64,000 nt of DNA from positions 225,384,578 to 225,448,577 of the forward strand of contig CP136062.1 in assembly GCA_032622095.1 (NCBI GenBank). Direction: 5' to 3'. The stretch is from Siphonodentalium dalli (Eukaryota > Mollusca > Scaphopoda > Gadilida > Siphonodentaliidae). Below are positions 15,064-40,535 of this stretch, in pieces; position 1 is the first letter of the stretch; the number at the start of each line of letters is the position of its first letter. The notes beneath the pieces were generated by a model. It saw only the letters and a program-made list of their open reading frames with translations, made no database searches and was not told where the DNA came from. Made by a program: the position numbers and the translations under genes.

Positions 15064-15188
15064 CCCATTCCGTAAAGTGTCGACAATCATGCCATGAAAC
15101 ATGGTGATATCTAGACCGTCAATCTTTAGGTCTCCATAGGAAAAGATGCACTTCGTGTCTTTGAACGTTGCAATGCCGTCGTTGTATA
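15064..15188 (-). CDS. Exon 5 of TULIP/BPI-like secreted protein gene
   Basis: Minus-strand exon of 125 nt between an acceptor (gatattttgcag, intron 4) and a weaker donor (GGG|gtaact). It opens with two bases that complete a codon begun by the last G of exon 4, then has 41 uninterrupted codons and ends in phase 0. The product contains YNDGIATFKDTKCIFSYGDL and KIDGLDITMFHG, then LRNG. The pattern Cys-x-I-x-x-x-G-D-L-K-I followed by a hydrophobic stretch and LRN resembles the strand after the conserved Cys and the following helix of BPI/LBP N-terminal barrels. Later exons were not found in 1-15063, so the gene is partial. The MITE at 15212-15671 ends only 24 bp upstream of the acceptor. Confidence 0.8.
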
Positions 15189-15211
15189 CTGCAAAATATC
15201 AAACGCATTAA

Positions 15212-15671
15212 AGGCCCACTTAATTTTCGAGTCTCCGATTATTTATTTTATAGTGATTTGATATACGGTTTTAATAACAATCTATGCCATAAAATATGAT
15301 TAAAATACTATAATTCATCACTATTTGAAACATCTGTGTCTCAGAAGATGCCAACAGAGAAATAGAAAACTGCTGAAGACTTCCCCCACTGGCACCCAGA
15401 ATGCAACAGAATTCAAACTTTTTCAATGAAAGGGGAAGAACTCGATCTTTAATATATAGAGTTTTTCCCCCTGCATTGAAAATAATACTGATTTTTACTT
15501 CAATCTTGATGACAAAACGCATTGGCAACTCAACAAAAACAACATGTCCACAGTTTATTGCACCGGATAAGTTGATAATACAATGTTTTGGAGCTTCCTC
15601 TTTCAAATGGTATATAATATGGCATATATTTTATATAAAGTAATCTGGGGGTTCGAAAATTAAGTGGGCCT
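15212..15671 (+). mobile_element. TTAA-flanked MITE, family R, copy E1
   Basis: TTAA at 15208-15211 and 15672-15675 flank a 460-bp element with ends AGGCCCACTTAATTTTCGAG and, inverted, gaaaattaagtgggcct. The interior has tacaatgttttggagcttcc and tcaaatggtatataatatgg, shared with E2 (19785) and E3 (20702). Non-coding. It lies in intron 4 of the TULIP-like gene, against the exon 5 acceptor. Confidence 0.88.
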
Positions 15672-15675
15672 TTAA

Positions 15676-16884
15676 AATTACGGATTATGATCGGGATCTG
15701 ATAATAGCTAGAATTTTAGGGAACCTTAAGTCGGGATTTGAACAGGATTGTATGCATATTCCGTGATCTCATCATAAGTGTTACCGGAATATAACAGAAA
15801 TGAGATCGGTATAATCACTGTTGCTCATCTGTTCCCCGAAGATCATTCCTGTCCCGTTTTAAGTTTCATTTCGATTTTGATCGTGTCCCCCCTTCGATTC
15901 CGATTTTGAAATGTTTTTGGAAGTTGAAAAGGTGGAAAAACGAGAAAACAAATGCCTGGCAGGCGAGTCTGTTAACATGTATTTTGGGTCATTGTGAGGG
16001 TGATAAATGAATATCATCGGATTTACGCCGTTTTACCAGTTTGTGTTAAATTAGAGTACGGGAGCGAATAAAGTGACACGGACGGACAATTATAGAATCG
16101 TGGCCATGAAATGGCTGTCAAAATGGCCGCAACTCCAAGCCATAACACGGAGAAAGCAAAATATTGGATAACCACATTGGAGTGAAAATACGTAATGGTA
16201 ATATACAAGTCGGTTGTTAAATATCATTAAAGGTACACAGACCATTAAACAGATCCACCTGAACGATTTATCGGCCTCAAGTCAAACCCCCAATGGTTTA
16301 CGTCTCTAAAGTTTGGGTTTTCTGATTATCCAACATCCAACAGTTACTGTCGGGCAAAAATAGTAATTTTGGACATACAGCAAACAAGCTCATGTTTTGT
16401 CTTACAGCGCATGGTAGTTTCATTCGGCATGATGATTAATTATTGAATATAACGCCTATAGTTAAGTGCATACTCTAGCGGTATAAATACTAGTTATATT
16501 TCCGGAATTGTCAACACTCCTGGCAATAATAAACTATACAGAAATGTCTTTGCTAATCCGAGCGATTTGAGAAAAAACCAGTGGCTGTATGAAAGAAAAT
16601 ATATATTAATAAAAAATTCAATAGTTGCTGCACTGGTGTTTACAAACCGATGTGAATGGTCAAGTTGGTTATAGTAACTAATACAACCAGTATTAAAATA
16701 TTTCGCAATATATACGCTGTTGAATGTTTGATACACATAGTGGCTTTTCCTATAGATAAGTTAAGATTATATGAATACCGCGAGAAACTTTAGAAAAAAT
16801 AACGGTAATTTTCTTAACAACATCAGTTTGCCCTAACAGCAAAATAGCAATTCAGCAGGACACTCCAGCATCACAGCACATCAG
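15676..16884. other. Intron 4, nothing recognised
   Basis: Unique intronic DNA. A minus-strand acceptor-like ctttcatacag near 16600 precedes a 28-codon open frame in the right phase, but the sequence is unlike the family and ends in a stop, so it was not used as an exon. Confidence 0.45.
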
Positions 16885-17655
16885 CAGGGCCCTATACTAT
16901 AGAACACAATTATTGTAATCACAAGCTTCTGTGAGGCACACACAAGGCGTCGATTACCATAGACCTCCACTCTTATTCTAACAGTGTATAGGCGACTTCT
17001 TGTAATTCCGCGTGCACATGCATAGTGACCAATAAAATAATAAGTTTTTCACATGTGACTTGATTGACCAATGAAAAAAATGATTCCTCGGAGACACTCA
17101 TTGATATGTTATCGCTAGTGCATGGGTGAGCCGTGTTCAATTTGATTAGTGGTAATCGGTATCCTTTAAATACTCGCCCAGTGAGTACACCGCAACCGTT
17201 CGTGCATTGTGTTATATTTCATCAATGGTTATCGTCTGTTCCAACAATTCAAGTCGTACGATGTATTTCAATTTCTAGTTGGTTGTCATTCAGAATCGCT
17301 GCAGTATTCTATTGATAATATGTACAAGAGACGTAGCTAGAAGGTCTCAGGTGCAGGTTTAAACTCCAAGATGTGTACCCCCAAAGGAGACCCTCTAACA
17401 ACGTCCCTGCACGAATGTCATAATTGGTCAATACTCCAATACAGACTTTAGGTTGTTTTCCACGAGACAACCGCTTGATTGCCGCAGTGTGAATGCCATT
17501 CTGACCAAACCCAATCACCCATCGGCAATGAGCCCATAAGCACACGGGTATAATCTACACTATTACAATACAGTGGTCTATCGCACTGCCCGCCTCCTGT
17601 GTACCTCCCTTAACCTTGTGATTACAATTATTATGGTCCATAGTACAGGGCCCAG
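16885..17655 (+). mobile_element. hAT-type non-autonomous element with about 80-bp TIRs
   Basis: Left CAGGGCCCTATACTATAG, right (inverted) (t)GGGCCCTGTACTATGG, and both arms continue through attgtaatcacaag. CAGGGCCC-like ends are common in hAT elements. The flanks (cacatcag and gaccactt) do not form a clean 8-bp duplication, so the superfamily is provisional. The ORF at 17309-17545 lies inside it and is not recognised. Confidence 0.65.
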
Positions 17656-17727
17656 GACCACTTGATAGGGGGTGGTTACACGCCCATGTGTTATCGTGCA
17701 TGAATACTCTACATATTATATACCCAC

Positions 17728-17798
17728 CGACAACCAGTTCCGATGAGAAATTGAGGTCTGTAATAACGACATCTAACTTCGCATGTGCGATGGCTCCC
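17728..17798 (-). CDS. Exon 4 of TULIP/BPI-like secreted protein gene
   Basis: A 71-nt minus-strand exon with acceptor tgcacatttcag and donor G|gtgggt. One base completes the codon begun by the final TT of exon 3 (giving Leu), 23 codons follow, and a final G begins the codon completed in exon 5 (giving Val). The product is GAIAHAKLDVVITDLNFSSE followed by LVV. It has alternating hydrophobic residues, as expected of beta strands, and aligns in pattern with the G-x-F-D-L-S-V-x-G-L-S-I stretch of BPI-type proteins. Short exons of this size are usual for this region in that family. All three facts (splice sites, open frame, phase) agree with the neighbours. Confidence 0.85.
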
Positions 17799-18219
17799 CT
17801 GAAATGTGCAATCCCAATTTATATATGTATTATGAGCATTCAACATCTAAATAAATAAATATCTTATATTGTACACAATTTGTATATCTTCATATAGTTT
17901 CCTTGATGATGAATAAAAAAGCGTTTACCGACGAAGATCCCCGAACAGTTTTCGTTATATCATTTCACCCAAAGGTGATATTGGCGTAGATCAATTTAGC
18001 TGTTAGTTAGCAGCCAATATCGTATGGATGTTGGTTTACCATTATTATTAGAATAGATAGATTAATTAATTAATTAATTAAACTAAATCTGATCACCCTA
18101 CGATACAACATTCGGAGGAATATATGTATATCTAGGGCAGTACAAGGTTTTTAAATTCAAGATGTATGTTAATGCTGATCCATTACAGTTAATTTAAACG
18201 TCAGTACATTAATACTTAC

Positions 18220-18342
18220 AATTTTATTGTTACATCAAGATCAAACGCGAATTTCCCGACATCGGCCAACACGGTAAATCCATTAATATCGGGTTGAAAG
18301 TTAATGTCAAACTTCTCATCTTCCATCGCTGTAATGCGTGCT
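18220..18342 (-). CDS. Exon 3 of TULIP/BPI-like secreted protein gene
   Basis: A 123-nt minus-strand exon with acceptor cttaatttcag and a strong donor TT|gtaagt. The first base completes the TC of exon 2 (giving Ser), 40 codons follow, and TT remains for exon 4. The product starts ARITAMEDEKFDINFQPDIN and continues GFTVLADVGKFAFDLDVTIK. The second half is a run of alternating polar and hydrophobic residues, as in an amphipathic beta-strand barrel. The other open frame across this exon (18230-18625) runs into the intron and is a shadow. Intron 3 is only about 420 bp. Confidence 0.86.
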
Positions 18343-18417
18343 CTGAAATTAAGAGAGTATTTTCGTTCTCACCCATTGTTTGTTTTATACATAAGCACGT
18401 ATACACGATTGTTGAAG

Positions 18418-18778
18418 GCACGGATGACCTTCGCAGTGGGTATGCTGTTAAATGAGCCACATCCGTTAAAACTACCATGAACCGAACGAATATTGAAACA
18501 TAGACATATTTTGTTCTTATACAAATCATAAATATCGCGTATAATAGTATTTTATTGTTCATAAGCTGTGTTATGTAAACAAAAGCCAGATTCTGTAATG
18601 TTTTTGGCTTTTGTTTACATAACAAAGCGTCGATCTTGACAATAACATACTATTATACGCGATATTTATGATTGGTATAAGAACAAGGTTTGTCTATATT
18701 TTAATAATCTATCTGTTTGAGGCGGTTTTAACGGATGTGACTATTTTAACAGCATACCCAACACGAAGGCCATCCATT
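18418..18778 (+). repeat. Fold-back element in intron 2
   Basis: Palindrome of about 360 bp. Left arm ccttcgcagtgggtatgctg, aaatatcgcgtataatagta and tatgtaaacaaaagcca; right arm the inverse of each, with a centre near 18595. It lies 76 bp upstream of exon 3 in the direction of transcription. No terminal duplication was fixed. Confidence 0.8.
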
Positions 18779-18899
18779 CCTTTAAAATGACAACAATAAC
18801 CTTTACATTGTGAGATCAGCAGCTACTCCATGCACTGTTCGTGTATGTATGTGTTGAAATAATGACAAGAATATCTGTGAACGTAGAAATAATAATTAT

Positions 18900-19100
18900 G
18901 TCAACCAGAATGGCCGCCATCTTGGATGTAGATGACCATTTCCCTACCCCAATGTAATTAGAATACTGTAACCCAATATTACCTACCAACATGTAAGCAT
19001 GGATAGAGTTCGTGTAATAGTTACGCCAATGGCAGAAAGAAAATAAATGGACACAGACGATTTTACAATTTGTGTTTGCCATTTTAGCCGCCATCTTGGA
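18900..19100 (+). repeat. Two copies of a GCCGCCATCTTGGAT-type repeat
   Basis: gaatggccgccatcttggat near 18910 and ttagccgccatcttggattt near 19085 head two similar stretches. The core resembles the ccatcttggat block of the 155-bp family, but the remainder differs. Confidence 0.45.
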
Positions 19101-19198
19101 TTTGGGTAACTGTTTCTTGAAGTTAGTGTAAGTAAATGTACTTCGCAAACATTATCAGCAACTTGACAGCAAGTACTAATGGACCTGTCGTGACAATA

Positions 19199-19452
19199 AG
19201 GGTACGTTCATACATTGGCAAGTTTGCACAATATGTTTTGCAGGCATTTTGCTGTAGAAAACCACATGCTGCCAGAATATGAACGAAAACGTGCATATAA
19301 CATGCATCTTTACCAACGTGAACCACACGAGAAGTACGATTTCTGTAGTTCCACTTTTAACGGTGCTGCTGGTATGCTGGCACCATTTCGTTTTCTATGA
19401 CGAAATGCCTACGAACCATACCGTGCAAACTTGCCAGTGTATGAACGTAGCC
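19199..19452 (+). mobile_element. MITE with about 30-bp terminal inverted repeats
   Basis: Left ggtacgttcatacattggca plus agtttgcac; right gtgcaaacttgccagtgtat plus gaacgtagcc. These pair over about 28 of 30 positions. Length is about 250 bp and the element is non-coding. The target duplication is not clear, so the superfamily is left open. Confidence 0.75.
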
Positions 19453-19784
19453 AATAGCTCATTGATGTAAAATTGAAGGATTTACTTTGTTTTACAGATT
19501 CCGATCGCCACTTGGGCCTCCATCTTCAATTTGCGTGAGTGTATCTCAACTAAAAATTAACAGAAAAACTGGGCCCAGAATCCCTTACACATATTTAATC
19601 ATGGATGGAGCTGTTGTAACAATAACACCCATTGATTCGAAACGGGCATCACGCGATTAGCGTATATATTATCAGCTTTGACAAAGTTATTTCGCCATTT
19701 GCAAATACGTGATATCGGGCAAAAACATTCGGCCGGAAATAGCACCTTTTGTATATGCACGCGATTGAAGAGCGAAATATACAT

Positions 19785-20157
19785 AAAGGTCACTTATTTT
19801 TTGAATCACCAATCACACTATATAAAATATATGTCATATTATATACCATTCGAAAGAGGAAGCTCCAAAACATTGTATTATCAATTGACGTGGTCGACTA
19901 AACTGGGGACATGTTGTTTTACCGATGTGCGTTCGGTGCTTAATTTTGATCCGGACTGTAAAATCTATTATTCTCAATGGAAGGGGAATAACTCTATCTC
20001 TTAGTTTGAATTATGATGCATTCTGGGACGACAACGGGGTTGTTGGACAGTATTTTAGTGGAATATCTATATTTTTGGTTCCTCTTCCAAATGGTATATA
20101 ATATGGAATATGTTGTGTATAATGTGATCTGGGAATTCGAAAATTATAAGTGGGCTT
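19785..20157 (+). mobile_element. Family R MITE, decayed copy E2
   Basis: The left end aaaggtcacttattttttga and right end aaattataagtgggctt are degraded family R termini; TTAA follows on the right. The interior gaggaagctccaaaacattg and aatggaaggggaataactct are shared with E1 and E4. Intronic (intron 2). Confidence 0.7.
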
Positions 20158-20701
20158 TTAACCGACGTTCACGGTTAGATGGTTATTCAATATGAGTAGG
20201 TACCACGCGAAGTTAGGATTACATTTCGAAGTGAGTATCCTGAGTTAATTGGAAGTGTGATAACCGAAGAAACCTACTTTTGATTAAATGAAGCTTTAAT
20301 TGTCTGAAACAGATTACAACACCATCAACTTTAGTCGTATAAAGTTAAATTCACATATTGGGAGGGTGGGCTTACAACGCCATAAGTAATCAACTTTAGT
20401 CGTACATAAAGTTAAATTCACATATTGGGAGGGTGGGCTTGATGGAGCTTTGTGGTAGCTCATTAAAATCACTTCTTTTCTTAACACACGTTCTTTAAAT
20501 TAAAGTTTGTTATAAAAGTGTAACGGGACAGGACTCGGTCCAAAACAGCATCAACCCAACCGATATACCAAGCGGAAGTGGACCGAGACGACTTTGTCTA
20601 CCACGAATGACTCCGATTTGCAGCGGTAACATAACAATATTACACCGAAGACTACCTGGGACAATCGTTCCGTATGTGACTTTATCAAATCGGGGCATTA
20701 A

Positions 20702-21890
20702 ATGCCCCCTTAATCTTTGAGTCCCCGATTATTTCTATACACCATAGTCAGTGTTATTAATTAAAGGCCCACTTAATGTTTGAGCCTCCGATTATTTATA
20801 TACATAGTCAGTGTTATTAAAGGCCCACTTAATGTTTGAGTCCCTGATTATTTACATACAGAGTCAGTGTTATTAAAGGCCCACTTAATGTTTGAGTCCC
20901 TGCCAGTGATTATTTATATACATAGTCAGTGTTATTAAAGGCCCACTTAATGTTTGAGTCCCCGATTACTTCTATACAGAGTCAGTGCTATTGAAGGTCC
21001 ACTAATGTTTGAGTCCCTGATTATTTATATACAGAGTCAGTGTTATTAAAGGGTCACTTAATGTTTGAGTCCCCGATTATTTATATACATAGTCAGTGTT
21101 ATTAAAGGCCACTTAATGTTTGAGTCCCTGATTATTTATATACATAGTCAGTGTTATTAAAGGTCCACTTAATGTTTGAGTCCCTGATTATTTATATACA
21201 TAGTCAGTGTTATTAAAGGCCCATTTAATGTTTGAGTCCCCGATTATTTATATACATAGTCAGTGTTTTTAAAGGCTCACGTAATGTTTGAGTCCCCGAT
21301 TATTTATATACAGAGTCAGTGTTATTAAAGGCTCACTTAATGTTTGAGTCCCCGATTATTTATATACAGAGTCAGTGTTATTAATTAAAGGCCTACTTAA
21401 TGTTTGAGTCCCCGATTATTTATATACAGAGTCAGTGTTATTAAAGGCCCACTAATTGTTTGAGCCCCCGATTATTTATATACAGAGTCAGTGTTATTAA
21501 TTAAAGGCCTACTTAATGTTTGAGCCCCCGATTATTTATATACAGAGTCAGTGTTATTAAAGGCTCACTTAATGTTTGAGTCCTCGATTATTTATATAAA
21601 GTCAAGTGTTATTAAAGGTCCACTTAATGTTTGAGTCCCCGATTATTTCAATACATAGCCAGTGTTATTGATAATTGTCGGATATAGTATGTTTGTACAT
21701 AGGTCGATTAAAGGCCAACTTAATGTTTGAGTCCCCGATTATTTATATACAGAGTCAGTGTTATTAAAGGCTCACTTAATGTTTGAGTCCCCGATTATTT
21801 ATATAAAGTCAAGTGTTATTAAAGGTCCACTTAATGTTTGAGTCCCCGATTATTTCAATACATAGCCAGTGTTATTGATAATTGTTGGCA
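20702..21890 (+). repeat. 56-bp tandem array, about 20 copies, built from a MITE end
   Basis: The unit starts aaaggcccacttaatgtttg, continues agtccccgattatttatata and ends ca(t/g)agtcagtgttatt. Its first bases are the family R terminal inverted repeat. Variants include a TTAATTAA spacer in some units and a 50-bp interruption at 21663-21712. The same unit in the opposite orientation forms the array at 28470-30335. Confidence 0.95.
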
Positions 21891-21949
21891 TGAAATAAAA
21901 CCAAATAGATATATAAGAGTGTCCACCAAGTGCTAGATATTGTCCGATT

Positions 21950-22165
21950 CAAGAGGGAAGTCGGTAGCCGAGAGGTATAGCGTACTGGTCTCTCTTGCTA
22001 GCGGACCGGGGATCGCAACCTGGTCACGGTATTATGACAAAAATCAGAACTCGGTCAGATACCAAGTTTGTCAGCCTGAAAAGTCTACAGATACAGATTC
22101 ACCACAATACGTCCCCATTTATTTACCCAGAATGCATCAAAATAAAAAAACTAAGAGATAGAATA
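21950..22165 (+). repeat. tRNA-headed SINE-like insertion
   Basis: A box: tagccgagagg, a full match to TRGYNNARNNG. B box: ggatcgcaacc, one base off the usual GGWTCRANNCC. Spacing is close to that of a tRNA gene. The downstream body (about 120 bp, ending in an A-rich aataaaaaaactaagagata) fits a SINE. It is not a functional tRNA gene because a complete cloverleaf could not be drawn. Confidence 0.55.
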
Positions 22166-22763
22166 TTCCCCTTCCATCGAGGATAATTGACCGGCAGTAC
22201 AGACCATCACAGAACACATGTCGGTACCTCGACAAAAACAATATTTTCACAGATTATTCGACCGGATTAGTTGATAATACAATGTTTTTGGAGCTTCCTT
22301 TTTCAAATGGTATATAACATCTAATGTGATCTGGTGATTCGAAAATTAAGTGGGCCTTTAACTATTAGATAGCATCAAAGAAAGGTCCCGTAATAAAGTC
22401 TAATATACCTAACGTTACACTTTCCAAACTGTACGATATAATAAATACTCAAAATACATAAAACAGCATACATGTATATAGTATAGATACCATGCATATA
22501 ACTTTCTTCGACGGAAACATAACACTTGATGAAATTGTTGACAAGAATTGTGTTTGTTATATTAATTTATTTATGTATTGCTTATTTTTGTTTATCACAT
22601 AATTAACCCACAAAACCAACTTCATAATTATTGGTAAGACACACGTGTAACATTAACACGTGCGATGACGTCACGCCGTTCTTTAAATGACTTGTGATCG
22701 CTGAAGTTTATGATTGTTGTTTTCGATGAATACTTCTCGTTTATTTGATCATGTGATAAAAGG

Positions 22764-22910
22764 TATCTCAAACTGGTTCTATTTTATACGTAATTTATCA
22801 ACCTCGTTCACTAAATTCTATTTGAGCCTCGGTAAACCTCGGCTCAATCGAATTTAGTGAACTCGGTTGATAAATTCCGTATAAAATAGAAACTCTTGTG
22901 AGATCCTCTA
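22764..22910 (+). repeat. Palindrome of about 145 bp
   Basis: Arms ggttctattttatacgtaat plus ttatcaacctcgttcactaa and their inverse, with a loop around gcctcggtaaacctcggc. Intron 2. May form a cruciform or an RNA hairpin. Confidence 0.85.
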
Positions 22911-24042
22911 TATGTCCTATATATGATACACATCTATATCTGGCAACTGCTCATTGGGGTGTTTTTCAATAAATTCTTGTATCTGGTATAACTTATTATA
23001 TAAATTGAGAATGTAATTTGACCGCACTGATTTATATGTTGTATCCATTGTAATTTGGCAGGCGCCATGCTTGTAATCTTATATATCGTTTGCTTCAATC
23101 AAAATGATCTTATCATAACAATATTGATTGGTGTATTACACTCTACAACAATACGTACACAGCATGTAATATAATATATCACTGACACGGTTAAATCCCG
23201 GTGGGGTATATATAAAGAGTATAATCACTTGATTGAACTGGTGATTGAACTGGAGACATGAACTGGAGACATGAACTGGTGATTGAACTGGTGACATGAA
23301 CTAATTCATGAGAGGCAGGGACGTTGAACAAACAATTCAATTCAATTCAGTTTAGTCTGTTCGTCAATAATAGACATTATAGATGTGTATACGTAAATTC
23401 AATATATATGGTCCTTACAGGTATAAATGTATATGTATGACATAAAAATAGGAATGGGGTGGTTGATATTCGTTAGTCACACTGTTTCAGTTCGACAGGC
23501 TGGTGGTAGTAAGCCTCGTGGGGACCTAAATATTTCAAGGACCTTCTTAACAAATACTAACACGTTTTTAAGTGTCTTACAATTTCGGGAGTTAAATAGA
23601 GCGGCTAGTTTATAAGTGTTAGGTCGCTGGTAGTAGTAACGTTTCAGATATTTTATTCTAAGTTCGCTATAAGTGCCCTACACTTCAGTGCCATGTGTTA
23701 TTCATCGCCGATTTCAAGATTATATCATTCTTGTATGTATATGTCACGTGGTTTATCGGTAGTTGTGCGATTGACGCTTTGCAAGCTTACTATATATATA
23801 GTACGCGTTGGTTGGTTCAGACACTACTCGTACCTAGGCAGTTAACACGAGAGTGTTTGACAAAATAGTCCCCGCATCGAATGATAAAGTGACATAATTC
23901 ACTAGTGAATTTATCGTTTTAATATAACTCGAGCAATCAAGGTAAATCACACAGAGGAATGTAATAAGAGATGTTTAATCCTTTCTCGCTGACAATTTAT
24001 GTGGCCGAGTAACAGCCGACAAGAAGACGATCTCGAACCAAA
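22911..24042. other. Intronic DNA; short GAACTGG repeat at 23233-23310
   Basis: Contains a small tandem repeat of tgattgaactggtgacatga type. Otherwise unique, with no exon found on the minus strand. Confidence 0.45.
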
Positions 24043-24294
24043 TAGCGGATGAAGATTGATAACTCTAAAATCAAGTGGCTTTTGTGTGTCAGATATTTGA
24101 CAAACCGGCAAAATTTCGTTGAACAAAATGATAAATAACAGGTTTTGGGCAATTATATACTATAGTTGACTGTGCATAGCCATTATTTGTGGACAGTTAC
24201 TCGATTCTGGTAACTAAAGCGGCATTTAAAACAATGTTGTTGTTGTTGTTGGAATCCGATGATATGGGGACCATCGAATCGGATTGAGTACCTT
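24043..24294 (-). mobile_element. Family Q MITE, partial copy
   Basis: Ends with cggattgagtacct, preceded by gttgttgttgttggaatccg and gataactctaaaatcaagtg. This is the reverse-oriented half of the 13547 copy. The other terminus is missing. Confidence 0.65.
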
Positions 24295-24571
24295 TGAGCT
24301 ACAGAAGGAGTCCTATTTATTGAGGGAAATGTTCAGATAATGAGTTCAATAAACGATGGTAGTTTGTTGAACTTATTAACTGAACATTTCCTATTGGATA
24401 ACTACTCGTCAATGCTGCAATACATATAACGGGTTCAGTCATATGATATTCACCTCTCCGCGACACTTCTATCAAAGTATTACAAAGTATTCTCTGATCC
24501 AATATTAATATAGCATTACAGGATATTGAGAAAATAGAGTATGTACAAGTAGCATATCTCATAACATGTAT

Positions 24572-25105
24572 TTCGTTCTCATATTATATCATTTGACTGG
24601 ACGACTGTTGGGTGGGGATTTCGTTCTCATATTATATCATTTGACTGGACGACTGTTGGGTGGGGATTTCGTTCTCATATTATATCATTTGACTGGACGA
24701 CTGTTGGGTGGGGATTTCGTTCTCATATTATATCATTTGACTGGACGACTGTTGGTGGGGATTTCGTTCCCATATTATATCATTTGACTGGACGACTGTT
24801 GGGTGGGGATTTCGTTCTCATATTATATCATTTGACTGGACGACTGTTGGGTGGGGATTTCGTTCCCATATTATATCATTTGACTGGACGACTGTTGGGT
24901 GGGGATTTCGTTCTCATATTATATCATTTGACTGGACGACTGTTGGGTGGGGATTTCGTTCTCATATTATATCATTTGACTGGACGACTGTTAGGTGGGG
25001 ATTTCGTTCCCATATTATATCATTTGACTGGACGACTGTTGGGTGGGGATTTCGTTCTCATATTATATCATTTGACTGGACGACTGTTGGGTGGGGATTT
25101 CGTTC
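24572..25105 (+). repeat. 48-bp minisatellite, about 11 copies
   Basis: The unit gatttcgttctcatattata, then tcatttgactggacgactgt, then tgggtggg is nearly invariant; some units have ttcccata. The unit length is divisible by three, so two long spurious ORFs (16-residue repeat) appear. They are separated only because one unit near 24750 lacks a single G. Intron 2, about 200 bp from exon 2. Confidence 0.97.
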
Positions 25106-25148
25106 GCACGGTGGTTGAAAATAAATTATATATACTCACCATGGATAT

Positions 25149-25275
25149 AGTGTGTCTGATAATTCCAGAATGAGGTCCACAGAGGGTGAAGTTGGTGACG
25201 CTATAACCAACTGTGTGGGATAGCATATTATAACTAAATCCACCCTCTCTGGGGACCTCATTCTGCAAATGTCAG
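25149..25275 (+). repeat. Short palindromic element (copy a)
   Basis: Arms gtgtgtctgataattccaga, atgaggtcc and agagggtgaa pair with ccaccctctctggggacctc, attctg and gtcagacacac. Two relatives follow at 25535 and 25820. It ends about 30 bp from the exon 2 donor. Confidence 0.8.
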
Positions 25276-25303
25276 ACACACTATGTCCAGGCTTGATACT
25301 CAC

Positions 25304-25388
25304 GATGTTACATCGAAGGAGTGCGAGGTTATCGCATCCATTCCTTTGAGAAATCGGTTCAGATCTCTGTCATTTATCCATTTAAAGA
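25304..25388 (-). CDS. Exon 2 of TULIP/BPI-like secreted protein gene
   Basis: An 85-nt minus-strand exon with acceptor atttctgtttcag and donor TC|gtgagt. It begins with TC, which completes the codon started by the last G of exon 1 (giving Val), has 27 open codons, and ends with TC for exon 3. The product is FKWINDRDLNRFLKGMDAIT followed by SHSFDVT. A basic/amphipathic stretch followed by FDVT fits the first helix and strand of BPI-like N-terminal domains. The plus-strand ORF over the same place (25283-25549) is treated as a shadow. Skipping this exon would shift the frame, since 85 is not a multiple of 3. Confidence 0.83.
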
Positions 25389-25534
25389 CTGAAACAGAAA
25401 TTATTGGTATGTATAATATCGAAGTCGTTATCGTTAGGCCAAAGAAAAAATATATTTGGTACACCAAGCTTAACAGTTATTATAAATTTCCAACCTACCA
25501 CCTCTCAAAGTCAGGCCTGCAAAAAGTGTGCCTG

Positions 25535-25640
25535 TCATTTGCAGAATGAGGTCCCCAGCGGGTGAATTTAGTAATGCTATCCCATACAGCGGGCTATCAT
25601 CACCAAATTCACCCTCTTGTGACCTTATTGTGCTTAGGCC
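25535..25640 (+). repeat. Short palindromic element (copy b)
   Basis: gcagaatgaggtccccagcg plus ggtgaattta pairs with caaattcaccctcttgtgac plus cttattgtgc. Relative of the 25149 element, with a more decayed right arm. Confidence 0.75.
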
Positions 25641-25819
25641 TCATTTTCTGGGAAGTATCTATAATAGTCTCAAATAAACATTGTTTGTAGTTACGTTTTC
25701 CCTTCTAGGAAGTTTCTATATCCCCAAATTTGCAAAAGATAAAATATTGTTGGACATCACTAACTTCAACTGGGGAACTTTAATCTGATGCCAGGTCTCC
25801 CATAGCAGTTGAGGACTAA

Positions 25820-25935
25820 GCAGAATGAGGTTCCCAGAGGGTAAATTTGGTTATGCTAGCCCGATGGGCGGGATAGCATCACTAAATTTACCCTCCGGAG
25901 ACCTCATTCTGCAAATGACAGACACACTATTTGCA
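25820..25935 (+). repeat. Short palindromic element (copy c)
   Basis: agcagaatgaggttcccaga plus gggtaaattt pairs with aaatttaccctccggagacc plus tcattctgca; the loop has gcccgatgggcggg. A flanking gacagacacacta is shared with copy a. Confidence 0.8.
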
Positions 25936-26019
25936 GGTTTGCCCAAGGTTTGAACATTTCCAACTGATGTTCATTTAAATCCAAAAGTAATATGCGACTG
26001 TTGGTCTATATAACAACAA

Positions 26020-27865
26020 CAAATTTCCCACTAATTACTGATTACTAATTTCCCACTAATTACTGATTATTAATTGCCCACTAATTAATGACTACTAATT
26101 CCCCACTAATGACTGATTACTAAATACTAATTCCCCAATAATTACTGATTACTAATTACTAATGCCCCACTAATTAATGACTACTAATTACTAATTCCCC
26201 ACTAATTAATGACTACTAATTACTAATTCCCCACTAATTTCCCACAAAACACATATTACTAATTAATAATTTCCCACTAATTACTGATTAAAAATTATTA
26301 ATTTCCCAGTAATGTCTTATTACTAATTACACGTTTACCACTAATTACTCATTTCCCATTGATTACTAATTCCCCACAAATTACTGATTACTAATTACTA
26401 ATTTCCAACTAAATACTAATTACTAATTTCCCACTAATTACTGATTACTAATTCCCCACTAATTACTGATTAGTAGTTACTAATTCCTACTAATAAATGA
26501 TTAGTAATTACTAATTCCCCACTAATTACTAATTTCCCACAAAACATTGATTACTAATTACTAATGTCCCACTAATTACTGATTAATAATTAAAAATTTC
26601 CCACTGTTTACTAATTACCAATTTACCACTAATTACTAATTACTAATCTACCACTAATTACTTATTACTAATTTCCCACTAATTACTGATTACTACTTCC
26701 CCAATAATTGCTTATTACTAATTTCCCACTAAATCTTAATACTAATTACACATTTCCCACTAATTACTAATTTCCCACTAAATACTGATTACTAATATTC
26801 CACTAATTACTAATTCCCACTAATTACTAATTTATAATTTCCCACTGATTACTGATTACTAATTCCCCACTAATTACTGACTACTACTTCCCCAATAATT
26901 GCTTATTACTAATTTCCCACTAAATCTTAATACTAATCACACATTTCCCACTAATTACTAATTTCCCACTAAATACTGATTACTAATATTCCACTAATTA
27001 CTAATTCCCACTAATTACTAATTTATAATTTCCCACAGATTACTAATTCCCCACTAATTACTAATTTTCCTCAAAATCCTTATTACTAATTACTGATTTC
27101 CCACTAATTACCGATTAATACTTATGAATTTCCCGCTAATTACTGATTACTAATTTCCCACTAATTACTTATTAGTAATTACTAATTCCCATTAATTACT
27201 GATTACTCAACTAATTATTGATTACTAATTACACATTTCCCACTAATTCTTGATTACTAATTCCCCACTAGTTACTGATTTCTAATTTCCCACTAATTAC
27301 GGATTACTAATTCCCACTAAATAATAATTACACATTTCCCACTAATTACTAATTTCCCACTAAATACTGATAACTAATTTCCCACTAATTACTAATTCCC
27401 ACTAATTACTGATTACTAATTTCCCACTAATTACTGATTACTAATTCCCCACTAATTACTGATTACTATTTTCCCACTAATTACTGATTCCCCACTAATT
27501 ACTAATTTTCCACAAAATCCTTGTAACTAATTACTAATTTCCCACTAATTACCGATTAATATTTACGAATTTCCCGATAATTACTGATTACTAATTTCCT
27601 ACTAATTACTTATTACAAATTACCACTAATTACTAATCATAATTTCCCACTAATTATTGACTACTAATTACACATTTCCCACTAATTCTTGATTACTAAT
27701 TACTGATTCCCCATTAGTTACTGATTACTAATTACTAATATGCCACTAATTACTTATTACTAATTTCCCACTAATTACTCATTACTAATTTCCCACTAAT
27801 TACAAATTTCCCACTGATTACTTATTACTAAATACTAATTTCCCACTAATTACTGCTTCGGAAAT
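26020..27865 (+). repeat. AT-rich degenerate tandem array (CTAATTACTGATTACTAATT)
   Basis: About 1.85 kb composed almost only of the words cccactaattactgattact and aattccccactaattactga in varying order, with deletions and duplications. There is no fixed period; 8- and 24- to 26-base steps dominate. Intron 1. Confidence 0.95.
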
Positions 27866-28137
27866 CAATATTTATATGAGTACAATTTCATCCTATTTAT
27901 GTGTGTGAAATTCCCAACTTACGTTGTGTCAGGCATGACATTTCCAAACAAAGTTGGGGTGAGACACCCCCCTCCATGACGCCATGCCCCTAAATTGTCA
28001 GAGTTCACGACCTTTAGTTGCAACCATATACCAAATCCAATTTCATAAATTTGAATTGCCTTTGAAAAAGGTTGGAACTCAATGTGACATAAACTATATA
28101 GACCTACATAATATACAAAAGAATATCGTTTTCTTGA

Positions 28138-30335
28138 AAGCCCACTTAATGTTCGAATCACATTATATACAACATATTCTATATTAGACACCATTTATAA
28201 AGAGGTGTTACTGTGAGCAGGCTTTTTTGTCGGGGTACGGCCGTGTGTTCTGAGTGGTTATGTGCTTAATTTTGATATTGACTCTACTGCCAGTCTACTA
28301 TTCTCAATGGAAGGGGAATAAATCTATCTCCTAGTTTTTATTTGTTTTATGCAGTTTGTGTAAATAAAGGGGATGTTTTGGGTGAATCTGAGAATCTCTA
28401 TCACTTTGTGAACACTCCTGGACCACACCTGTTCTATATTCTGGTGAAATATATTAATAACACTGACTATATATATATAAATAATCAGGGACTCAAACAT
28501 TAATTGGACCTCTAATAACACTGACTCTGTATATAAATAATCGGGGACTCAAACATTAAGTGGGCCTTTAATAACACTGACTCTGTATATAAATAATCGG
28601 GGACTCAAACATTAAGTGGGCCTTTAATAACACTGACTCTGTATATAAATAATCAGGGACTCAAACATTAAGTGGGCCTTTAATAACACAGACTCTGTAT
28701 ATGAATAATCAGGGACTCAAACATTAAGTGGGCCGTTAATAACACTGACTCTGTATATAAATAATCGAGGACTCAAACATTAAATGAGCCTTTAATAACA
28801 CTGACTATGTATATAAATAATCGGGACTCAAAAACATTAATTGGCCCTTTAATAACACTGACTCTGTATATAAATAATCGGGGACTCAAACATTAAGTGG
28901 GCCTTTAATAACACTGATTCTGTATATAAATAATCAGAGACTCAAACATTAAGTGGGCCTTTAATAACACTGACTCTGTATATAAATAATCAGGGACTCA
29001 AACATTAAGTTGGTTTTTAATAACACTGACTCTGTATATAAATAATCAGAGACTCAAACATTAAGTGGGCCTTTAATAACACTGACTCTGTATATAAATA
29101 ATCGGGGACTCAAACATTAAGTGGGCCTTTAATAACACTGACTCTGTATATAAATAATCGGGGACTCAAACATTAAGTGGGCCTTCAATAACACTGATTC
29201 TGTATATAAATAATCAGAGACTCAAACATTAAGTTGGTCTTTAATAACACTGACTCTGTATATAAATAATCAGGGACTCAAACATTAAGTGGGCCTTTAA
29301 TAACACTGATTCTGTATATAAATAATCGGGGACTCAAACATTAAGTGAACCTTTAATAACACTGACTCTGTATATAAATAATCGGGCACTCAAACATTAA
29401 GTGGGCCTTTAATAACACTGACTATGTATAGAAATAATCAGGGACTCAAACATTAAGTGGGCCTTTAATAACACTGACTCTGTATATAAATAATCGGGGA
29501 CTCAAACATTAAGTGGACCTTTAAAAACACTGACTCTGTATAGTAATAATCGGGGACTCAAACATTAAATGGGCCTTTAATAACACTGACTCTGAAAATA
29601 AATAATCGGGGACTCAAACATTAAGTGACCCTTTAATAACATTGACTCTGTATATAAATAATCAGAGACTCAAACATTAAGTGGGCCTTTAATAACACTG
29701 ACTCTGTATATAAATAATCAGGGACTCAAACATTAAGTGGGCCTTTAATAACACTGACTCTGTATAGTAATAATCGGGGACTCAAACATTAAGTGGGCCT
29801 TTAATAACACTGACTCTGTATAGTAATAATCGGGGACTCAAACATTAAGTGGGCCTTTAATAACACTGACTCTGTATAGTAATAATCGGGAACTCAAACA
29901 TTAAATGAGCCTTTAATAACACTGACTCTGTATATAAATAATCAGGGACTCAAACATTAAGTGAGCCTTTAATAACACTGACTCTGTATATAAATAATCG
30001 GGGACTCAGAGATTAAGTGGGCCTTTAATAACACTGACTCTGTATATAAATAATCAGGGACTCAAACATTAAGTGAGCCTTTAATAACACTGACTCTGTA
30101 TATAAATAATCGGGGACTCAGAGATTAAGTGGGCCTTTAATAACACTGACTCTGTATAGTAATAATCGGGGACTCAAACATTAAGTGGGCCTTTAATAAC
30201 ACTGACTCTGTATAGTAATAATCGGGGACTCAAACATTAAGTGGGCCTTTAATAACATTGACTCTGTATAGTAATAATCGGGAACTCAAACATTAAATGG
30301 GCCTTCAATCGGGGACTCAAACATTAAATGGGCCT
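28138..30335 (-). mobile_element. Family R MITE E4 with expanded terminal array, reverse orientation
   Basis: The left end aaagcccacttaatgttcga is a family R terminus (flank degraded); the right end tgggcct is followed by TTAA at 30336-30339. A short interior (28180-28470) has tattctcaatggaaggggaa, as in E2. The remaining 1.87 kb is the 56-bp array. It is the mirror image of E3 in the other intron flanking exon 2. Confidence 0.8.
28470..30335 (-). repeat. 56-bp tandem array, about 33 copies, inverse of the 20.7-kb array
   Basis: The unit on the plus strand is taataacactgactctgtat, then ataaataatcggggactcaa, then acattaagtgggcctt. Subfamilies differ by atatg/atagt/atata and by cggggac/cagggac/cagagac. 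Adjacent units often share the same variant, which indicates local duplication. Confidence 0.95.
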
Positions 30336-30634
30336 TTAAGTGGTAAATAGTTTATTGCGATATTGACTCACAAAAGTCACACAAAACATGCAATCTCGAG
30401 CTGGGGAGCCCACCCAAAATGTGAATTAGATTATTGAGGTACAAGCATTAACAAAGAAATATATTCCCTGCCTTAGTTATTTGTTCACAATAAAGTTCCC
30501 TGTAGGAACGGGTCAGAACTTTATAAAGTTCCAAGGGTGTGTACTGGTTGAATATATGAGAGTAGAGATTCATGACATGAGCTACCATTTAGTATATATA
30601 AAAAGGGTTATATAGTTACGATTATTCCACTCAC

Positions 30635-30755
30635 CTTGTTTGAAAACGCCTGTGTGTAGCTTATACACTAAGAAATCATTTTTGGTGCTCGAGCCCATTG
30701 TTCCACCAAAACTCATTATCCCAAGTACAACTAGGAAAAAAAGTGTACGTTCCAT
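30635..30755 (-). CDS. Exon 1 (start, signal peptide) of TULIP/BPI-like secreted protein gene
   Basis: Minus-strand ATG at 30755-30753 with an in-frame TAA three codons upstream and a G at +4. The product begins MERTLFFLVVLGIMSFGGTM, a short basic n-region followed by a hydrophobic core. This is a classical secretion signal with likely cleavage near residues 18-22. Residues then run to VYKLHTGVFKQ. The exon is 121 nt (40 codons plus G) and ends at a textbook donor, CAAG|gtgagt. A TA-rich ttttatattg lies about 85 bp upstream of the ATG and could be a weak TATA element. Intron 1 (5.2 kb) holds E4 and the AT-rich array. Expression would be secretory; the ligand is unknown. Confidence 0.85.
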
Positions 30756-39761: not shown

Positions 39762-40535
39762 ATGTTTACTGGTTTGTTGAGGTATTATGATAGTGCATGG
39801 GGTAGGTGTCATGCATTTAGTGAAACCCGAAATGAATTCGGGAATGTCCACCGCCTGAGAGGTACCTTTCCCAACAAACCAAGGCGCGTCATCGCACGAG
39901 TCGTACAATTCCGTCAGCGTGAGGATGTTAAAAGGGCAGTCCGCGATAAGGGAGACCAACAATTCTGTATCACCAAACAATATCCGAAAGAGATTGACGA
40001 TTATAGGACAGCTATTCTATTCCCGGTAGCAAAGAGTGCCAGAAGCAGTGGGAACAAAGCCGTCGTTGCAGGTGACAGACTTTTTGTGAATAACTATCAA
40101 GTGTGCCCTGATGACCCACCGATGTACAGATTGAATCCCGATCGGTCGTACCCCCTTGTGCCGATGATACAGCAAACCAACTTTCGTAATATGAACTACA
40201 GGCTGATTGAGTCCCCCGTTGACCCAGCAGCAGGGAATTTTTCCCAACCTAGAGTACAATCAAATTATGCGAACACTGCAGGAAACAACAGTTTTCGACA
40301 ACAAGTACCTCCCATAATTTCTGTCCGCCCAAGAATGCCTGCTCTGGCATCCTGCCCTGTAGTGAAAACACCGGATATTGAAATGCAACCTGATACTCAC
40401 GATGAATTTCAGTACCCAGGCAAGCCAATGAACTCGGTGAGTGACCATTTTAGGCCACCCCAGGGGCGTGCACCAATCAGAGGAGGTGGAGCTCAGCCAG
40501 ACCTCCGGTGGTTGGTGTACCACAACCGGGCTTAG
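39762..40535 (+). pseudogene. LINE ORF1-like RNA-binding protein, 5'-truncated
   Basis: A 257-residue open frame. Residues about 30-110 contain KPRRVIARVVQFRQREDVKR, then TKQYPKEIDDYRTAILFPVA and KAVVAGDRLFVNNYQVCPDD. This matches the pattern of the C-terminal RNA-binding domain of L1-type ORF1 proteins (…PR-x-I-x-x-x…, F-P-x-E-I, D-x-L-x-I/V-N). The rest is Pro/Gln-rich. A coiled coil is expected upstream but absent. ORF1 of LINEs coats the RNA. It is followed after only about 20 bp by RT C-terminal sequence, so most of ORF2 is deleted. Confidence 0.65.

Follow-up and report, generated by a model that had tools for sequence, protein, structure and literature searches.

Five short minus-strand exons scattered among repeats in a 64,000-nucleotide stretch of contig C2 (hereafter, the window; C2:225384578-225448577) very probably belong to an LBP/BPI/CETP-family gene of 15 exons, as predicted from the genome sequence, and make up its 5' third. 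A first-pass annotation had presented these exons as a five-exon gene for a secreted, divergent TULIP/BPI-like protein. Spliced alignment changes that picture in extent, giving a second domain and ten additional exons, all of which lie outside the window. The predicted product ends in a hydrophobic tail that raises the possibility of attachment to the cell surface.

Gene structure

The part of the gene that falls within the window occupies positions 15064..30755 on the minus strand and contains introns filled with tandem arrays and dispersed repeats. Exon 1 (30635..30755, 121 nt, phase out 1) supplies the ATG, a signal-peptide-like segment, and the beginning of the N-terminal domain. It is followed, on the same strand, by exon 2 (25304..25388, 85 nt, phase out 2), exon 3 (18220..18342, 123 nt, phase out 2), which is unaltered in an inverted duplicate of the gene, exon 4 (17728..17798, 71 nt, phase out 1), and exon 5 (15064..15188, 125 nt, phase out 0). 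The borders are AG and GT throughout, with exon 1 starting from the ATG, the joined frame comprises 175 open codons, and comparison across the whole window identified the five exons as unique sequences. The original description of the exons therefore stands: all five are present at the sizes claimed, open and bordered by GT/AG, and the junction phases of 1, 2, 2, and 1 agree on re-reading of the sequence. The signal peptide assigned to exon 1 likewise corresponds to a signal-peptide-like start; the N-terminus of the product is hydrophobic, with a maximum 15-residue mean hydropathy of 2.13, and the feature is recognized by hydropathy alone. No convincing terminal exon turned up within the window when one was sought after exon 5 in phase 0; exon 6 is located beyond the window. 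A match to the Pfam BRK domain at 24565-25173, below the cut-off and inside a translated tandem array, was rejected.

We searched the genome, which comprises 2.23 Gb on 9 contigs, in all six frames with the 175 residues. All 12 candidates were scored, and the search yielded 11 places, namely, the window exons themselves, an inverted second set of exons, and one place on contig C1. At the latter, denoted L017, residues 7-162 were matched within a single open frame with an E value of 1.4e-21 in the 2.23-Gb genome. The L017 frame extends over 537 codons and contains no intron. Exons separated by kilobases in the window directly adjoin one another in L017, so that their joins are confirmed independently of splice scoring.

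We then used the L017 protein for a splice-aware alignment to the locus, in which no exon positions were supplied and a stretch of 1,286 bases preceding the last exon was read as N. The alignment produced 15 exons, the first five with borders identical to those first described, in support of the claimed joins, and ten more to the left of the window. Exons 6-15, on the minus strand, run from C2:225382437 down to 225351537 and measure 58, 98, 159, 60, 174, 68, 43, 73, 86, and 249 nt, the last including the stop and having 240 nt aligned. From the first exon to the last, the coding portion extends over C2:225351537-225415332, about 64 kb. When joined, the 15 exons, each open and with AG/GT borders, give a complete open frame of 530 amino acids with 42% identity to L017. 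The true alignment scored 1069.7, compared with 347-376 in all eight controls, which consisted of the opposite strand, the reversed protein, and six shuffles. The aligner is permissive, given that the controls show 35-40% identity in aligned columns, and the identities that it reports are accordingly inflated; the smallest exons, 6 and 12, are supported largely by order, frame, and size. For the predicted exons, we consider the combination of an intronless homologue with a spliced alignment that returns the five borders to be decisive.

Family membership

The proposed affiliation with a divergent TULIP/BPI-like family is supported by a profile match of L017 and by an exon-size pattern typical of the family. 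L017 matches PF02886 (LBP_BPI_CETP_C) with 27.1 bits, above the cut-off of 23, over profile positions 28-233 of 238. In a genome-wide search, PF02886 detected six places, four of them above the cut-off, and L017 was the best of the six; other Pfam-detectable BPI-like exons in the same genome reside on C2 and C4, and one on C6 is marginally below the cut-off. The window product itself has no match to PF02886. Nor did the 530 residues match a TULIP profile from either Pfam or NCBIfam, and for the 175 residues as well as the 530 the comparison with solved BPI/CETP chains by sequence (PDB) gave nothing meaningful. The last-exon product produced only chance-level matches in Pfam, NCBIfam, and PDB sequence searches; L017 matched no solved chain by sequence, and a two-member profile built from the window product and L017 matched no solved structure. 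The N-terminal profile of the family, PF01273, matched neither the window product nor L017 in hmmscan, which drops most matches above ~0.1. The profile search suggested earlier as a check on the 175 residues divided: no TULIP match was obtained from Pfam, where matches were at chance level, and the transposon match named as the contrary outcome was likewise absent. Thus, the predicted membership of the window gene in the family is supported through its 42%-identical paralogue and its exon pattern, not through a profile match of its own.

Two cysteines are relevant in this context. Cys147, encoded in exon 5, and Cys177, encoded in exon 6, form a candidate disulphide pair that is kept in L017 as Cys147 and Cys180. 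This conservation is consistent with the BPI-N disulphide, which, according to a 2017 review of TULIP proteins, joins the 5th and 6th elements (PMC5507252).

The exon sizes can be compared with those of chicken CETP, given in Table 3 of PMC3253384 as 115, 135, 71+88, 70, 61, 92, 180, 51, 168, 68, 43, 70, and 86 nt. The internal exons of the window gene measure 85, 123, 71, 125, 58, 98, 159, 60, 174, 68, 43, 73, and 86 nt. With the CETP 88+70 counted as one, a pairing with the 125-nt exon that was picked post hoc with the data already in view, every internal exon, 13 of 13, equals the tabulated size modulo 3, and four of the 13 (71, 68, 43, and 86 nt) are identical; permuted window-gene sizes reach 13/13 modulo 3 at ~2e-5 and 4/13 identical at ~6e-5. 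The 71-nt exon 4 matches in size the first of the two halves into which exon 5 of chicken CETP is split, and the 71 + 88 split is described in section 3.2 of the same source as special to CETP. Exon 5 of the window gene differs from CETP in being shorter by 33 nt than 88+70, with one intron absent there. Against the chicken BPI sizes in that source, 11/11 separately comparable exons agree modulo 3, and the 60-nt exon has the same size in chicken BPI and PLTP. Furthermore, at all four of the other PF02886 places that hold a counterpart of exon 8, the best-scoring borders define an exon of 177 nt, phase 0-0, which is the vertebrate size.

Altogether, the gene shares with the CETP/BPI/LBP/PLTP family a signal-peptide-like start, two-domain length, a candidate N-barrel cysteine pair, and exon phases and sizes, as well as, in the paralogue L017, the C-domain profile match. 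It differs from the family in that the window copy is too divergent for Pfam and carries a C-terminal extension. Among invertebrate BPIs, such as oyster Cg-BPI and squid EsBPI2/4, the features in common with it are two BPI domains, a signal sequence, and conserved cysteines, as described for the EsBPIs (PMC5380838).

C-terminal extension and possible membrane anchor

The window product continues for ~75 residues past the end of the Pfam match found in L017. This extension includes a block of 13 consecutive residues, KTYGQVYDIRDSG, that is identical in the window gene (copy A) and L017. The last 22-25 residues are hydrophobic and preceded by small residues; D, E, K, and R are all absent from them in copies A, B, and C of the gene and in L017. 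Judged from hydropathy and composition, the tail suggests a GPI anchor, a reading to which we assign about an even chance. The earlier designation of the protein as secreted holds in part, in that the start is signal-peptide-like; the hydrophobic tail suggests membrane tethering.

In the available sections of the 2017 review, most CETP/BPI members are stated to be secreted, and membrane anchoring of such proteins is named only via the PqiA domain, in protists and amoebae (PMC5507252). The PqiA-type proteins resemble the window product in placing CETP/BPI domains at the plasma membrane, the anchor being putative in the present case, but the PqiA domain has 9-12 transmembrane segments as opposed to a single short tail. 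No described GPI-anchored BPI/LBP/CETP protein was recognized among the matches listed from the open-licence literature.

It is conceivable, albeit rather unlikely, that the same gene, in the same family, encodes a secreted, soluble BPI that binds LPS or is bactericidal, with the tail a plain extension devoid of an anchor signal. The signal-peptide-like start and two-domain family membership fit such a protein, as does the prevalence of secretion among CETP/BPI proteins. However, the N-terminal domain, with a pI of 5.55 in the window gene and 4.78 in L017, is acidic, whereas the squid EsBPIs are very basic and antimicrobial by description (PMC5380838), which makes direct bacterial killing less likely and speaks against a bactericidal form of the candidate innate-immune role first suggested; the basic N-terminal barrel associated with bactericidal BPIs is not found here. 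The uncharged tail common to all four sequences also argues against a soluble product.

With about equal weight for and against, we propose that these genes represent a branch of the animal CETP/BPI proteins, unnamed in the literature searched, that functions as a GPI-tethered lipid receptor or transfer station and is present here as a duplicated 64-kb gene, an apparently truncated copy, and an old open retrogene with the same tail. The predicted layout is a signal peptide, an N-terminal TULIP barrel, a C-terminal TULIP barrel, and the ~75-residue extension with its hydrophobic tail. Such a protein would enter the secretory pathway and would fold as two barrels with hydrophobic pockets that hold lipid, as is known for the family (PMC5507252). 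A GPI anchor would leave it on the outer cell surface, where it would capture or hand over lipids, not kill bacteria directly.

Duplicates and evidence of constraint

The second set of exons recovered by the six-frame genome search, copy B, is located at C2:225460307-225478020 and is inverted relative to copy A; inverted duplications were listed for matches of >92% and 150 nt. The two copies were compared over 12 of the 15 exons (1-11 and 15). There is no stop and no gap; across 463 codons, 30 changes are non-synonymous and 20 are synonymous, for a dN/dS of 0.40 (p 0.002). Over exons 1-5 alone, copies A and B differ at 15 sites, too few to show constraint. For the third copy, C, the genome searches recovered only exons 8, 10, 11, and 15, and neither exons 1-5 nor exon 7. 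The dN/dS is 0.33 between A and C (p 0.01, 4 exons) and 0.05 between B and C (p 0.002). These ratios, along with 15 open window-gene exons with proper borders, make it improbable that the locus is a decaying pseudogene or a non-functional segmental copy, even though the region is repeat-rich and inversely duplicated and copy C has been found only in part.

The window gene is very unlikely to encode a TULIP with just one barrel, as in the JHBP/takeout/group-7 proteins. The length of the 175 residues corresponds to roughly one barrel, and in copies A and B alike the frame of exon 5 runs on for 13 codons to a stop; L017, however, continues through the C-terminal domain, and ten further exons follow in order at the locus. 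The JHBP, takeout, and group-7 mite allergen proteins share a TULIP-N-like barrel with the window gene but have one barrel each, and the initial comparison with JHBP and the group-7 allergens does not fit a 530-aa, 15-exon, two-domain product.

Intrinsic signals were assessed with a simple gene-finder score that combines splice sites and amino-acid composition. The reported five-exon chain scores 51.3. For comparison, the region was resampled 200 times with a Markov model after removal of the arrays. Five-exon chains that begin with a signal-peptide-like exon scored at most 39.9 in these resamples; none reached 51.3, and 157 resamples contained no chain of that type. Exons 2-5 have splice sites of moderate score, and the real region also yields another chain with a higher score, 59.6, so that intrinsic signals alone would not single out exactly exons 1-5. 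The alternative that the exons are open by chance or derive from transposon coding sequence, to which these scores and the location among arrays and mobile elements might point, is nevertheless extremely improbable given the uniqueness of the exons in the window, the recovery of their sequence elsewhere in the genome in copy B and L017 only, the intronless homologue, and the family and exon-pattern matches.

Implications

The window gene illustrates that exon phase and size can assign family members whose sequence escapes Pfam. If the species is an invertebrate, as presumed, the CETP-type 71-nt split exon would predate vertebrates. If the hydrophobic tail is a GPI anchor, this would be an animal with a cell-surface BPI/CETP protein.

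Repeats in the introns of the gene

Intron 4 of the window gene holds, about 20 nt from the acceptor of exon 5, an element of 468 nt (15208-15675) whose 23-nt terminal inverted repeats are perfect. Of the 40 candidates scored, out of 3,843 at first look, the genome search placed 38 as dispersed, near-full-length copies (94-97%); this is a young, high-copy, MITE-like element. The introns also carry two arrays of a 56-bp satellite, at 20697-21885 and 28454-30336. The satellite unit and the end of the 468-nt element are alike over 37-43 nt (about 87-92%), as if the arrays had originated at the terminus of the MITE-like element and subsequently grown.

Other coding-like features

Two retroelement-like copies with similar frames lie in opposite orientation, at about 31.5-38 kb on the minus strand and about 56-62.5 kb on the plus strand, and we read both as putatively DIRS-like; one frame of the former matches reverse transcriptase, under Pfam's cut-off. 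The top-scoring exon-like segment of the whole window (40202-40507, plus strand) falls inside a 271-codon open frame, for which a Pfam search gave no match up to E 0.1.

Copies of the gene elsewhere in the genome

The coordinates place a large inverted duplication centred at about 54.2 kb of the window. The duplicate, copy B, is situated beyond the window and runs opposite to the window gene, with exons 1-11 and 15 located; part of the 3' end of its exon 7 is repeated just downstream of that exon (G000:C2:225493724-225493921). A further copy, C, at C2:225.80-225.83 Mb, apparently lacks the 5' exons.

On contig C1, locus L017 harbors an intronless homologue on the minus strand (L017 373-1986, G000:C1:251213198-251214808). 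About 8 kb away, L040 weakly matches its hydrophobic C-terminal tail. Genome search and frame reading found a 537-codon open frame with a signal-peptide-like start, this tail, and no intron. On these sequence features, L017 is an old retrogene, which may still be functional.
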